From: Actinorugispora endophytica
GTDB lineage: Bacteria; Actinomycetota; Actinomycetes; Streptosporangiales; Streptosporangiaceae
DNA: 64,000 nt
Direction: 5' to 3'
NCBI RefSeq assembly: GCF_004363075.1
Contig: NZ_SNYN01000015.1
Location: 1-64,000, forward strand
The notes under the pieces were generated by a model. The model was not told the origin of the DNA. It searched no databases and saw only the letters and a program-made list of their open reading frames with translations. Shown here one piece after another: positions 4,297-26,499 of the stretch. The position numbers and the translations under genes are program-made. How positions within the stretch are numbered: position 1 is the stretch's first letter; each line of letters opens with the position of its first letter.

Positions 4297-6393
4297 TTAC
4301 CGGCGGTAGCCGTCGCCGTAGTAGTTGTCGGGATCGTCCTCGGGCCGGTTCGGGCGGCCCTGGGGAGGACCGCTCTGGTCGTAGGGCGGCCACTCGCCGG
4401 GCCGGGGGCCGTAGCCCGGTCCGGTGCCGTACCCGCCCGGCTGGGCCGGCCCGCCCTGGGGGTATCCGCCCTGCCCGTCGGGGTAGCCGTTGTAGGACGG
4501 CGGCTGCGGAGCGCCCGGCGCGGGGTAGTCGCCGCGGTTGTAGGAGCCGGTGTCGTAGGGGTTGTCGAAGGACCCGGTGGTGTAGGGGGAGTCGTAGCCG
4601 CTCGTCGAGGGCTGCGCCCCGGTCGGGGTGTAGCCGCCGCCGACCCCGGGACGTTCCCCGGCGTCGCCGCCGAACGGCTGCGGCCCGCTGTCGGGGGAGC
4701 CGCTCCAGGAGGACTCCTCCCAACCGCCGCGCGGTCCCGGACCGTACCCCGGTCCGCTCCGCCCCTGTGCCGGGTCCTGCCCGGCGGAGTCGCCGCGGTT
4801 GTAGGAGCCGGTGTCGTAGGGGTTGTCGAAGGACCCGGTGGTGTAGGGGGAGTCGTAGCCGCTCGTCGAGGGCTGCGCCCCGGTCGGGGTGTAGCCGCCG
4901 CCGACCCCGGACTGGTCGGGGGAGGAGCCCCGGAAGGACGGCTGCGCACCGGTCGGCGCCGCCCCGGCGGGCGGGAACGGCGGCGCGGCCGGCGGAACCG
5001 GCGGCCGCTGGTGGGAACCGGTGTCCAGACTCGACCAGATCGGGGATCCGGTGGCGGGGCCCGACGGAGGCGTTGACGTGAACGACGGGTCGGTCAACGG
5101 GTCCCCGGGGGAGGGCCGGGCGGCCGGCGCGCCGGCCGCGAAGGAGCCGGTGTCGTAGCTTCCGCGGCTGTGGGAGCCGGTGGTGGAGGCGGGGCGGTCG
5201 TGTGACCCGGTGTCGTAGGAGGAGGGGGTCGGCGCGCCCGACGGGAAGGAGCCGGTGTCGTAGCCTCCGCGGCTGTGGGAGCCGGTGGTGGACGACGGCG
5301 CGGGGCCGCCCAGCGGGTCGGACTCGTAGCTTCCGCGGCTGTGCGACCCCGTGTCGAAGGACGACGCGGGGGACTGGCCGCCGGGCGTGCCGTAGCCCCC
5401 GCGGTCGTGCGACCCGGTGTCGTAGCTTCCGCGGCTGTGGGAGCCGGTGGCGGAGGCGGGGCGGTCGTGTGACCCGGTGTCGTAGGAGGAGGGGGTCGGC
5501 GCGCCCGACGGGAAGGAGCCGGTGTCGTAGCCTCCGCGGCTGTGGGAGCCGGTGGTGGACGACGGCGCGGGGCCGCCCAGCGGGTCATCGGCCGCGCGCG
5601 GGTCCCACGCCTGGGTGCGTTCGGTCGCGGACGGGACCTGACCCGGGTTCCAGCCCTGGGCGGGCGTCGCGGGAGCCGCCGGGACAGGGGGCAGGGCCGC
5701 GGCGGGGGCGCGGTTCACGAGGCCGCCCAGAGCCTCACCCGCGACGGGGGTGGGCGGACCGGTCCGGCCGGAGAGGCCCGGCTCCGAGGGGGAGTCGTCC
5801 CCCTGGCCGAGACTGGCCAGCATCGCCAGCGGGTCGGTGCCGCCGGACGCGGCCGGCGCGGCCTCCTCGGCCTCGCCCCGGGAGCGGCGGCCGCGCGAGC
5901 GCGGAGGCTCCTCGTCGTACTCGTCGTCCGCGACGACGGTCATGGCCGCCGTGGACTCGTTGCGGGTGTCGCGGCGCTGCGGTTCGGGCTCGTCGAAGTC
6001 CGGCCCCTGGTCGAGGCCGTCGTCGGAGCGGTCGTCGTGCAGGCTGGAGAAGTAGCCGTCGTCGTCGCCCCAGTCGTCGTCGCGGCTCTTGCGCGAACGC
6101 GGCTTGCGGGCGGCCCGGGGCTCGGCCTCGGACCGGGACCGGCGGCCCCCGCGCGACCGGGGCGCGGGCTGATCGTCCTCGGACTCCTCGGCCGGTTCGG
6201 CCTCGTCGTCGCGGGCGGCCGCGCGGCGCGAGGAGCGCCGGGCGCGGGGCTTAGCCTCCTCGCCCTCGTCCTCCTCGACGTCGTAGTCGTCCTCGTAGTC
6301 GTCCGCCGCGCTGCCCGCGCCGAGGGCACGCAGCCCAAGCACGATGAGCAGAAGCACGACGATGACGATGACGACGATGAGTGCAATGATCAT
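4297..6393 (-). CDS. Membrane-anchored low-complexity repeat protein
   Basis: 698 aa. Residues 1-22 (MIIALIVVIVIVVLLLIVLG) form one N-terminal membrane helix. Residues about 30-165 are an acidic/basic mixed-charge region with clusters of Asp/Glu and Arg. From about residue 200 the protein is Gly/Ser/Pro/Tyr-rich, with roughly twenty copies of a short unit of the type YDTGSHSRG or YDTGSFPSG. Two in-frame DNA duplications are visible inside the gene. The architecture suggests a disordered cytoplasmic tail tethered to the membrane, as seen in several actinobacterial cell-envelope or division-associated proteins, but no named family is recognised. It is probably transcribed alone. Confidence 0.8.
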   Translation of the reverse strand: MIIALIVVIVIVVLLLIVLGLRALGAGSAADDYEDDYDVEEDEGEEAKPRARRSSRRAAARDDEAEPAEESEDDQPAPRSRGGRRSRSEAEPRAARKPRSRKSRDDDWGDDDGYFSSLHDDRSDDGLDQGPDFDEPEPQRRDTRNESTAAMTVVADDEYDEEPPRSRGRRSRGEAEEAAPAASGGTDPLAMLASLGQGDDSPSEPGLSGRTGPPTPVAGEALGGLVNRAPAAALPPVPAAPATPAQGWNPGQVPSATERTQAWDPRAADDPLGGPAPSSTTGSHSRGGYDTGSFPSGAPTPSSYDTGSHDRPASATGSHSRGSYDTGSHDRGGYGTPGGQSPASSFDTGSHSRGSYESDPLGGPAPSSTTGSHSRGGYDTGSFPSGAPTPSSYDTGSHDRPASTTGSHSRGSYDTGSFAAGAPAARPSPGDPLTDPSFTSTPPSGPATGSPIWSSLDTGSHQRPPVPPAAPPFPPAGAAPTGAQPSFRGSSPDQSGVGGGYTPTGAQPSTSGYDSPYTTGSFDNPYDTGSYNRGDSAGQDPAQGRSGPGYGPGPRGGWEESSWSGSPDSGPQPFGGDAGERPGVGGGYTPTGAQPSTSGYDSPYTTGSFDNPYDTGSYNRGDYPAPGAPQPPSYNGYPDGQGGYPQGGPAQPGGYGTGPGYGPRPGEWPPYDQSGPPQGRPNRPEDDPDNYYGDGYRR
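4527..4649. repeat. Intragenic duplication, block 1 (partner 4788-4910)
   Basis: A 123-bp block that recurs with no visible difference at 4788-4910, offset 261 bp (87 codons), so the reading frame is kept. It encodes the repeated peptide around TPTGAQPSTSGYDSPYTTGS. Confidence 0.9.
4788..4910. repeat. Intragenic duplication, block 1 second copy
   Basis: Second copy of the 123-bp block at 4527-4649. Synonymous positions are identical as far as I can read, which points to a recent duplication or ongoing gene conversion. Confidence 0.9.
5147..5319. repeat. Intragenic duplication, block 2 (partner 5414-5586)
   Basis: A 173-bp block recurring at 5414-5586 with offset 267 bp (89 codons). Only one clear base difference is seen (GGTGGTGGAGGCGG versus GGTGGCGGAGGCGG). 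It encodes the DTGSHSRG-type repeats. Confidence 0.9.
5414..5586. repeat. Intragenic duplication, block 2 second copy
   Basis: Second copy of the 173-bp block at 5147-5319, in the same reading frame of the low-complexity protein gene. Confidence 0.9.
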
Positions 6394-23762: not shown

Positions 23763-23933
23763 CTACGCGTTGTGCGGGTCGATCCCATTGCGAGCGGCGA
23801 TGCGACGCAGGTCCTCCAGCTCCGACGCGTGCGCGTCGGCGAGGAATTCGTCTCCAGCGGCCTGAGCCGCTTGGAGCGACGTGCAGGTCTCGTTGATCCG
23901 GACCCGAATCTCCGACAGAAACTCGCCCATCAT
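23763..23933 (-). CDS. 56-aa helical hypothetical protein
   Basis: Starts MMGEFLSEIRVRINETCTSL after a GAGAGGGG ribosome binding site; ends with LRRIAARNGIDPHNA. The sequence has a heptad-like alternation of Leu/Ile/Ala and charged residues, so a two-helix hairpin or short coiled coil is likely. I do not recognise the family. It converges with the phosphatase gene and uses the same terminator. Confidence 0.7.
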   Translation of the reverse strand: MMGEFLSEIRVRINETCTSLQAAQAAGDEFLADAHASELEDLRRIAARNGIDPHNA

Positions 23934-24118
23934 CACACCCCTCTCACCACATGGTTGGCGGTTGCCGACCATACCCACGCCCGTGCACGCGCCAAACCTC
24001 CCGGTTCGAAGGTTCACCAACCGGTAACCGGTAACCGGTGACGCGGCGGACGCCGGTTCCGGCCGCGGGCGCCGGGCCCCGCCATGATTCCAGGGGCCTC
24101 GCGGAGGGCGCGGGCCGG

Positions 24119-24501
24119 GTGGCGGTAAACCGCGATCGGGGTGTCTTACCCCACAATGGTCACGAAAGAGGGGTGCTTACCTTTTTCTTATCCGTGCTGT
24201 GTCACATTCGAGATGTGCGGGGTGAACGTCGCGGTCGGCGGTTGGGGGATGCGCCGACCGCGACTCCGCGTTCTCGGGGGTTCCGGACCGACGTCCGGAC
24301 TCCGGTGAGCGAAGAGCGCGGAACTCCCCGTATCATCGAAGACGTACCGGCTCCGGCCGGGGAAGTCGCCTGATCTTCCGGTTGCGCGACACCGACCTGG
24401 TTTACCAGCACCTTAACCAGGACGTGGGAAAACAGATGACGCAGCCGGGGTTGAGCGCCGCTGCCGGTGTGTTGGGGGATGCGCCGGCAGCGGCCTTTTT
24501 T
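24119..24501 (+). promoter_or_regulatory. Structured leader of the two-component operon
   Basis: About 380 nt without a gene ahead of the response regulator. It contains hairpin 1 (GCGGTCGGCG at 24231-24240 with 24252-24261) and hairpin 2 (GCCGCTGCCGG at 24457-24467 with 24484-24494). The same 16-mer GTTGGGGGATGCGCCG occurs in both (24241-24256 and 24471-24486), forming the G-rich loop and start of the 3' arm. An additional inverted repeat CCTGGTT...AACCAGG lies at about 24399-24417. No known riboswitch consensus is recognised. Confidence 0.55.
24457..24501 (+). terminator. Intrinsic terminator or attenuator upstream of the response regulator
   Basis: An 11-bp GC stem with 16-nt loop followed directly by a run of six T residues (24496-24501), the only U-tract terminator seen in the window. 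It sits 32 nt before the GTG of the response regulator, with its ribosome binding site beyond the hairpin. It either ends a short upstream RNA or attenuates the operon. Confidence 0.7.
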
Positions 24502-24532: not shown

Positions 24533-25186
24533 GTGCGCGTACTCGTGGTCGAAGACGAGCAGGTCCTCGCGGACGCGGTCGCCGTGGGCCTGCGGCGCGA
24601 GTCGATGGCCGTGGACGTCGTGTACGACGGTGACAGCGCGTTGGAGCGCACCAGCGTCAACGACTACGACGTCGTCATCCTGGACCGGGACCTGCCGGGA
24701 ACGCACGGCGACGACGTGTGCCGGTCACTGGCCTCCTCCAGCTACACCGGGCGCATCCTGATGCTCACCGCCGCGGGCGAACTCGACGACAAGGTGGCCG
24801 GGCTGACCCTGGGCGCCGACGACTACATGGCCAAGCCCTTCGCGTTCGCCGAGCTCATCGCGCGGGTGCGGGCACTGGCCCGGCGCGCGGCCCCGCCGCT
24901 GCCGCCCGTGCTGGAGCGCGGGGGCATCACGCTGGACCCGGCCAACCACACGGTCGAGCGCGACGGGCGCCCCGTCCCGCTCACGCCCAAGGAGTTCGCG
25001 GTCCTCGAGGTCCTGATGCGCGCGAACGGCACCGTGGTCAGCGCCGAGGGCCTGCTGGAGAAGGCGTGGGACGAGAACGCCGACCCGTTCACCAACGTCG
25101 TGCGGGTGACCGTCATGACCCTGCGCAAGAAACTGGGCGAGCCCCCGGTGATCCGAACCGTGCAGGGCGCGGGGTACCGCATTTGA
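24533..25186 (+). CDS. OmpR-family response regulator
   Basis: 217 aa, GTG start with GAAGGACA ribosome binding site. The receiver domain (1-118) has the acidic pocket EDE at 8-10, phospho-acceptor Asp51 in ILDRDLPG, the switch Thr in MLTAAG and Lys in MAKPFA. The C-terminal winged helix (about 125-217) has LTPKEFAVLEVLMRANG and VVRVTVMTLRKKLGEPPVIRT (recognition region in part: VRVTVMTLRKKLG). It should be phosphorylated by the kinase encoded downstream, whose start overlaps this stop. The regulated genes are unknown. Confidence 0.95.
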   Translation: MRVLVVEDEQVLADAVAVGLRRESMAVDVVYDGDSALERTSVNDYDVVILDRDLPGTHGDDVCRSLASSSYTGRILMLTAAGELDDKVAGLTLGADDYMAKPFAFAELIARVRALARRAAPPLPPVLERGGITLDPANHTVERDGRPVPLTPKEFAVLEVLMRANGTVVSAEGLLEKAWDENADPFTNVVRVTVMTLRKKLGEPPVIRTVQGAGYRI

Positions 25187-26499
25187 GTGCCGAGGGACAG
25201 GGGCGGCCCGACTTCGTCCCCGCCCAGGCCTCCACCGGCGAGGTCCCGCCCACGCCGCCCGGCGAGACCGGGACCTGGCGCCGGCTGTCCTCGCCGCTGC
25301 AGTCCGCGGCCTCCGGCGGCGGGCCGGTGTCCCGCCCCGTCAGGGCGGAGGTGCCCCAGATCACCGACAACATCAGCCTGCGGATGCGCCTCACGCTCAT
25401 CTACGGGATGCTCTTCTTCGCGGCCGGATCGCTCCTGGTCCTGCTGAACTACGTGATCCTGACCAGCGTCCTGGACAAGCCCGACTTCACGATCCAGATC
25501 GACGGCTACACCCTCGAATCCGAGATCGCGGAGGAGATCAAGGCCAGCCTGATCGACGGCATCGCCAACCAGGTCACCCGGTTCTCCATCCTGGCGCTGG
25601 TCGTGGTGGGCGTCCTGGCGGTGGGCCTCGGGTACGTGGTGGCCGGCCGGGCGCTGTCCCCGCTGCACAAGATCACCCGCATCGCGCGCAGGCTGTCCGA
25701 GCGCTCACTGCACGAGCGCATCGCGCTGAGTGGGCCCGACGACGAGATCCGCGAGCTCGCAGACACCTTCGACGCGATGCTGGAGCGCCTGGACCGCGCC
25801 TTCGACGGCCAGCGCCGCTTCGTCGCCAACGCCTCCCACGAGCTGCGCACCCCGCTGGCGATCAACCGCACCCTTCTCGAGGTCGCGCTCGCCGACCCCG
25901 AGGCGTCGGCCGACCTCAGGACCATCGGCCGCACCCTGCTGGAGACCAACTCCCGGCACGAGCGCCTCATCGACGGCCTGCTCTTCCTGGCCAAGAGCGA
26001 CCGCGAGCTGAACGTGCGCGCCGTGGTCGACCTGGGCGAGGTGTCGGCCACCGTGCTCAGCCAGCTCAGCGGCGACATCGAGAACTCGGGGCTGAGGATC
26101 CGCACCGACCTGCGCGAGGCGCCCGTCACCGGTGACCCCGTGCTGCTGGAGCGGCTCGTGGGCAACCTGGTGGAGAACGCCCTGCGGTACAACGTCGCCG
26201 GCGGCGAGATCACGGTCCGCTCCGGCGAGAACGAGGGCGCCCCCGCGGTCCAGGTGGAGAACTCCGGTCCGGTCATCCCGGTCTACGAGATCGAGGGCCT
26301 GTTCGAGCCGTTCCGTCGGGGTTCCGGCGACCGGGTGCGCTCCAAGAAGAGCGCGGGCCTGGGACTGTCCATCGTGCGCTCGGTCGTGCGCGCCCACCAG
26401 GGGGTGGTCACCGCCTGGCCGCGTGCCGGGGGCGGCCTCGTGGTGACGGTCCGCTTCCCCTCGAGCGGCCGCCGCGCCGACTCCGAGGGCGCGGTCTGA
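25183..26499 (+). CDS. Membrane sensor histidine kinase
   Basis: 438 aa from TTG 25183, which overlaps the regulator stop as TTGA; a later start is possible because the first 60 residues are low-complexity. Two membrane helices (about 70-92 and 128-153) bracket a short external loop of about 35 residues, so the sensed signal is probably in or near the membrane. HAMP (GRALSPLHKITRIARRLSER), HisKA with His219 in NASHELRTPL, and HATPase with NLVENALRYN and GLGLSIVRSVV follow. It phosphorylates the OmpR-type partner encoded upstream. Confidence 0.93.
   Translation: MSAEGQGRPDFVPAQASTGEVPPTPPGETGTWRRLSSPLQSAASGGGPVSRPVRAEVPQITDNISLRMRLTLIYGMLFFAAGSLLVLLNYVILTSVLDKPDFTIQIDGYTLESEIAEEIKASLIDGIANQVTRFSILALVVVGVLAVGLGYVVAGRALSPLHKITRIARRLSERSLHERIALSGPDDEIRELADTFDAMLERLDRAFDGQRRFVANASHELRTPLAINRTLLEVALADPEASADLRTIGRTLLETNSRHERLIDGLLFLAKSDRELNVRAVVDLGEVSATVLSQLSGDIENSGLRIRTDLREAPVTGDPVLLERLVGNLVENALRYNVAGGEITVRSGENEGAPAVQVENSGPVIPVYEIEGLFEPFRRGSGDRVRSKKSAGLGLSIVRSVVRAHQGVVTAWPRAGGGLVVTVRFPSSGRRADSEGAV

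Follow-up and report, generated by a model that had tools for sequence, protein, structure and literature searches.

Our data show that the 5′ leader of the two-component operon cutR-cutS (cutRS) carries two hairpins with a common G-rich tip in one clade of soil bacteria related to Nocardiopsis, one member being Nocardiopsis xinjiangensis (L038). Comparison of related leaders shows, at the level of sequence, both hairpins and selection on the sense-strand RNA, and the element is almost certainly a functional leader RNA. On balance, and with limited confidence, we favor the explanation that it is a clade-specific cis-regulatory RNA whose apex is read by a trans-acting factor, setting cutRS expression. 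As far as our Rfam and literature searches show, the element is undescribed; its general kind, a cis-regulatory hairpin leader, is known. The features concerned lie in the 64-kb stretch of DNA that was analyzed (the window) and are as follows.

24176-24191, plus strand: upstream box of putative promoter P1, CTTAC-N6-CTTAT, an 11-bp direct repeat and putative OmpR-family regulator site (sequence and family alignment).
24203-24208, plus strand: putative −10 element of P1, CACATT (CAGATT in many relatives), assigned from its position relative to the box and its conservation.
24212-24227, plus strand: conserved block GATGTGCGGGGTGAAC between P1 and hairpin 1 (family alignment).
24228-24264, plus strand: hairpin 1, with arms 24228-24240 and 24252-24264 (13 bp) and apex GTTGGGGGATG at 24241-24251 (folding, covariation, G.U versus A.C counts, and covariance-model matches).
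24401-24416, plus strand: upstream box of putative promoter P2, TTTAC-N6-CTTAA (TTTACC-N5-CCTTAT in many relatives; pattern match).
24428-24433, plus strand: putative −10 element of P2, GAAAAC (GATAAC in several relatives), assigned from the alignment.
24457-24494, plus strand: hairpin 2, GCCGCTGCCGGTG-TGTTGGGGGATG-CGCCGGCAGCGGC, 38 nt (identity across leaders and folding).
24496-24501, plus strand: T6 tract after hairpin 2, resembling that of an intrinsic terminator (sequence and U-tract count across leaders).
24533-25186, plus strand: cutR orthologue, an OmpR-family response regulator with a GTG start (Pfam Response_reg and Trans_reg_C; identity to Streptomyces).
25183-26499, plus strand: cutS orthologue, a sensor histidine kinase (HAMP, HisKA, and HATPase_c; inferred start).

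The original prediction placed the hairpins in front of a two-component operon, and this is borne out by the regulator and histidine kinase domains that Pfam recognized. Since cutR is 72-75% identical to most of the Streptomyces orthologues found, and several of these agree, in the sequence before and at the gene start (AGGAAGGACAAGCGAC-GTGCGCGTA), with the primer text given for S. coelicolor cutR in a portion of PMC10433416, the operon was named cutR-cutS. The cutS gene overlaps cutR by 4 nt (TTGA). The operon is orthologous to CutRS of Streptomyces, a secretion stress two-component system, and a DUF4193 gene (Pfam) was noted downstream of it here; the likeness does not extend to the leader, as the exact TTGGGGGATG was absent from 79 other cutR loci, mostly from Streptomyces. 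The element precedes a system whose own regulation is unclear: according to part of PMC12802291, the published CutR motif (TAWATAAA) is absent at the cutRS promoter and no binding there was seen by SPR, yet the promoter is enriched in ChIP. A small divergent open frame lies upstream of cutR (23763-24020, minus strand); it has no Pfam match, and DNA resembling this region is seen by eye upstream of cutR in several sister genera.

The sensor also varies between groups. Two invariant cysteines are a reported feature of the Streptomyces CutS sensor (PMC12802291, in part). We counted sensor-region cysteines in a stretch set by its distance from the HELR motif and not by membrane helices (the preceding 150 residues at most, minus the last 60), and found none in any of the 30 readable clade loci, while 78 other cutS loci contained two (n = 66), none (n = 6), one (n = 5), or four (n = 1). 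Given that the clade proteins lack the two Streptomyces cysteines, the input signal of CutS may differ between the clade and Streptomyces.

As had been reported from the first inspection, the 16-mer GTTGGGGGATGCGCCG occurs exactly at 24241-24256 and 24471-24486. Simulated 64-kb sequences contained a mean of 9, 13, or 19 repeated 16-mers (Markov orders 1, 3, and 5), and since the repeat alone is not significant in a window of 73% GC, it was not relied on as an argument against chance and the evidence was taken from relatives instead. Each hairpin folds more stably than all 200 of its dinucleotide shuffles (z = −3.3 for hairpin 1 and −4.7 for hairpin 2), and the whole leader folds better than 100 shuffles (z = −5.2). 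Folding draws the apex as a short GUU/GAU helix closed by GGGG, and the number of pairs in hairpin 2 ranges from 13 to 17, depending on how the apex is drawn. Within the block at 24212-24227, GAGATGTGCGGGGT is conserved at 90% or more in each column of the family alignment.

A blastn search with the leader matched 85 of 297 family genomes; 16 in which only short pieces matched were dropped, and 69 distinct leaders from 17 genera were kept (the identical L038 and L141 were counted once). Hairpin 2 is identical over its 38 nt in 68 of the 69, the remaining leader (L140) having one change. Where a full-length cutR is available (30 genomes), hairpin 2 shows no variation at any of its 38 positions; in cutR itself, just 5 of 88 fourfold-degenerate sites are invariant, with a mean pairwise identity of 0.65. 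A 38-nt hairpin frozen across 17 genera while cutR synonymous sites vary freely is a sign of strong constraint. Coding constraint was ruled out by reasoning, as the invariance extends to all codon positions of the hairpin.

Hairpin 1 has changed in its stem and kept its tip. The GGGGGAU tip (DNA GGGGGAT) is found in all 69 leaders, and the exact TTGGGGGAT in 66, the other three having one substitution just before the G tract; the apex TTGGGGGAT is also invariant in alignments A2 (49 rows) and A3 (47 rows), which consist of hand-picked distinct hairpins. Across 47 distinct sequences, 98.9% of the cells in hairpin 1 pair, with double changes at 8 of the 13 pairs. None of 500 shuffles reached the observed percentage paired, the number of pairs or of cells with double changes, or the covariation score; the weakest of the five measures, further pair types, was reached by 16 of 500. 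As the 47 rows are related and hand-picked, the pair counts do not represent independent events. In addition, these cells contain 31 G.U against 4 A.C combinations, which points to selection on the sense RNA. The earlier claim that a constant loop on a compensated stem marks a functional RNA is thus strongly supported, both by this covariation and by the clade-wide conservation. Since hairpin 1 drifts with compensation of its own, alternative pairing between its arms and those of hairpin 2 was ruled out.

In genus g9, all six leaders contain a third hairpin, whose unrelated stem bears the tip GTTGGGGGA[CT], indicating that it is the tip, and not one stem sequence, that is kept. This hairpin was misaligned for L134 in alignment A1; the row was dropped in A2 and used as separate evidence. 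In our reading, the GAC of hairpin 3 and the UC in place of UU in L149 would preserve the GUU/GAU helix, and the UG of L017 would not. Among leaders with two exact tips, the tips lie 104 to 320 nt apart.

Genomes were searched with a covariance model of the hairpins. Of the 345 genomes searched in the order, 70, from 17 of its 70 genera, each gave exactly two matches at E values up to 1e-6; the remaining 275 gave none. These searches score first-look candidates and apply stricter filters above 40 genomes. In 24 hairpin-bearing genomes, the leader scored at least 54.6 bits, and the matches listed elsewhere at most 35.4 bits. Conservation upstream of orthologous regulators, the absence of which had been set out as grounds for giving up the prediction, was found within the clade, and the prediction survives. 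The only family-sample genome of the 17 genera without the leader (G256, genus g46) comes from an assembly that also lacks cutR (E up to 1e-75).

Outside the clade, strong matches among 396 phylum-wide genomes occurred in the source genome alone. Five other members of the phylum (L179-L183) gave weak matches (30.7-33.9 bits) and were rejected as further copies, as none has GTTGGGGGAT; L179 has TGGGGGATT in a hairpin loop, but inside an 815-codon open frame, and a single match of this type among 396 genomes is near chance. TTGGGGGA was absent from both strands of 20 sister-genus loci (only 10 nt upstream for L175). In the loci searched, the hairpins do not precede cutR outside the clade, and hence are not a cutRS-leader element of all Actinomycetota. 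Since model matches are confined to 17 genera and to the cutRS leader, comparison of the genomes searched shows an element restricted, as judged by sequence, to one operon and one clade. In 12 of the 20 sister loci (L158-L164, L166, and L168-L171), a different short palindrome-like block, GCCGGTCC[AG]GCGC, stands where hairpin 2 would be, a little way past the −10-like hexamer of cutR.

The promoter region suggests how the pair arose. We propose that two tandem promoters, each with an 11-bp direct-repeat box, derive from a duplicated promoter-plus-hairpin unit, and that each GC-rich hairpin lies within about 12-25 nt of the likely start of a putative promoter. The P2 box pattern, [TC]TTAC-N4..8-TTA, is present in 59 of the 69 leaders; the 10 without a match include the close relatives L009-L012, and hairpin 2 is intact in all ten. 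Several Streptomyces cutR genes are preceded by an 11-bp repeat like the P1 box, CTTACAGCCGACTTAT; in many sister loci, CTTAT or CTTAC recurs at 11 bp, together with CATAAC. The published CutR motif differs from the box sequence. In one leader (L156, genome G062), the two hairpins, separated by only 104 nt, both belong to the hairpin-2 type, an arrangement possibly close to the original duplication.

Given that the tip is kept across hairpins and stems, we take it to be the site read by a trans factor, and such reading at the apex is probable. We postulate that an RNA-binding protein, or a small RNA with C-rich loops such as 6C, would dock at the apex, and that, by binding the leader during or after its synthesis, it would set the amount of cutRS expressed. 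In species with a U-tract, the effect at hairpin 2 would fall on termination or read-through; in species without one, it would fall on translation or mRNA lifetime. The stem of hairpin 2 is as frozen as its apex, beyond what loop recognition needs, and could have a DNA-level or trans-pairing role as well. The hairpins offer a short bait for finding an RNA-level regulator.

The element was originally called an attenuator, and part of this holds. In the window, the GC-rich hairpin at 24457-24494 is directly followed by CTTTTTT, i.e., a C and the T6 tract, which gives it the form of an intrinsic terminator, and the GTG of cutR lies 31 nt past T6. Such a U-tract (at least 5 T within 8 nt after hairpin 2) is found in 47 of the 69 leaders; the other 22 lack it, and no conserved antiterminator pairing was seen by eye in the part of the leader alignment inspected. 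Action by termination at hairpin 2 is accordingly a possibility that we regard as somewhat doubtful. It was also stated that this is the only U-tract terminator in the window, which is not quite accurate: the scan also lists, at 49517-49485 on the minus strand, a stem of 13 bp with TTTTT behind it, hairpin 2 being the strongest of the terminator-like sites listed.

A simpler version of this idea, which we consider unlikely, is that hairpin 2 is a plain attenuator whose read-through sets the cutRS level, with hairpin 1 a spare copy left by the duplicated promoter-hairpin unit. The 17-pair stem with T6 in the window and the U-tracts of the 47 leaders agree with it, and the remaining 22 leaders count against it, although actinobacterial terminators can function with poor U-tracts. 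A terminator, however, requires neither an invariant apex nor an invariant stem, and the apex is also kept in hairpin 1, which has no U-tract here; a conserved competing pairing was likewise not apparent by eye.

A second rival, first raised as a speculation from the sequence alone, names the partner: a 6C/B11-type small RNA with C-rich loops would form kissing contacts with the leader, the GGGGGA tips pairing with UCCCCC of 6C loop 2, and the two hairpins would jointly repress cutRS. We rate this as improbable on present evidence, although it is now better motivated than before. There is precedent in Mycobacterium abscessus, in which B11 (6C) represses a gene by direct pairing with a G6 tract in its 5′ UTR, as demonstrated by compensatory mutants (PMC10470900, in part). 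The source genome has a 6C RNA that scores above the cut-off (54.7 bits), and 6C is present in 15 of 19 hairpin-bearing genomes at E values up to 0.001. Moreover, UCCCCC, complementary to the invariant GGGGGA, lies in a loop of 24 of the 25 6C copies kept, and in the 25th (L190) as judged from its sequence. The loci compared were L157, L185-L204, L235, L236, L238, and L240.

Two further comparisons with sister genera bear on 6C. In 15 of 20 sister loci (6 of 10 genera), the 30 nt ahead of the cutR start contain a G5 tract, which none of the 69 clade leaders has there; these 20 were chosen by hand among the better cutR matches lacking the leader, with 8 of them from one genus, and L175 has only 10 nt upstream. 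Elsewhere, G5 precedes the start in 4 of 79 other cutR loci, in 6 of 72 genes of a ribosome-binding-site control with crude gene calling, and in 4.1% of random windows. Loop 2 of 6C has a C run of 5-6 nt in all 19 hairpin-bearing genomes and of 7-8 nt in all 6 sister genomes, a difference that may be a single old change and thus weak evidence for 6C pairing. In genus g52 (L158-L165), all eight loci have a G5 tract in the cutR ribosome-binding region, and in some of them, L158 and L160 included, this tract is the loop of a TTTCCA-GGGGG-TGGAAA mini-hairpin.

Several observations speak against 6C. UCCCCC is also present in the 6C RNAs of sister genera without the hairpins; the invariant UU and U that flank the G tract find no explanation in 6C; and a C tract of any origin will match any G tract. 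Genus g46 has the hairpins, but a 6C-like locus resembling the other 6C loci was found in just 4 of its 10 searched genomes, in each case short of the gathering score; six loci with weaker matches (L237, L239, and L241-L244) were set aside, and none was convincing in G042. Cofolding of 6C with the hairpins gave no gain, by a method that cannot represent kissing loops. A dedicated RNA-binding protein is equally compatible with the data, and 6C is unlikely to be the partner.

Returning to the preferred reading of a trans factor at the apex, we tentatively extend it as follows. The cutRS leader may be a two-site RNA receptor, with a dedicated partner (either a small RNA with C-rich loops or an RNA-binding protein) binding its frozen GUU-GGGG-GAU tips, such that the secretion-stress system is set after initiation; within one family, the G-tract target may have shifted from the ribosome-binding site into the tips of hairpins. 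Compared with mycobacterial 6C/B11 targets, the leader would likewise present a G5/G6 tract in a 5′ UTR to a small RNA with two C-rich loops; in contrast, the published G6 example lies at the ribosome-binding site (PMC10470900, in part) and the G tracts here are in hairpin tips. The question of whether 6C-type RNAs have structured targets becomes directly testable.

Other known systems resemble the element in outline. The guanidine-II riboswitch also has two similar tandem hairpins with a repeated conserved loop, but its loop is ACGR and its spacing short, and Rfam gives no match here: a search of the 64 kb with Rfam 15 returned nothing at the gathering score, the best sub-threshold match in the leader being PtaRNA1 (18.9 bits against 47). 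ANTAR-target RNAs (e.g., the E. faecalis eut leaders) share the plan of two leader hairpins with common loop residues, one of them linked to a terminator in many species, whereas here the apex is GUU-GGGG-GAU, the stems are ~13 bp, and the spacing of the tips is that given above. ANTAR-target loops are described, in part of PMC3369931, as hexanucleotides on short stems with a conserved A (first) and G (fourth), a definition that the invariant TTGGGGGAT does not fit, and this candidate was rejected. The published literature, as far as covered by searches on the motif letters and on Nocardiopsis leader and small-RNA topics, contains no description of the element in the parts consulted.

That hairpin 2 is instead a DNA-level element, i.e., a palindromic operator over the initial transcribed region with an incidental hairpin, agrees with the 38-nt identity of both arms in 68 of 69 leaders but is very improbable, as the asymmetric apex varies no more than the arms do, hairpin 1 maintains its pairing through changes of sequence, G.U far exceeds A.C, and hairpin 3 has a similar tip on an unrelated stem. 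A CsrA-regulated leader was rejected because CsrA (PF02599) has no match in the source genome (3 of 14 control genomes were positive). A fully complementary trans RNA was rejected as well on the basis of the source genome, in which the full 10-nt loop complement, ATCCCCCAAC, has one copy outside the leader, and this falls inside a 299-aa open frame; five other genomes have 3 to 7 further copies each. A genome-wide repeat or mobile element was likewise rejected, as the 14-base core of the 16-mer, TTGGGGGATGCGCC, has no other exact copy in the source genome; in addition, the hairpin-2 26-mer had no match in viral contigs, and the leader none in plasmids.

Elsewhere in the window, an exact direct repeat of at least 35 nt occupies 4527-4561 and 4788-4822, with its copies 261 nt apart.
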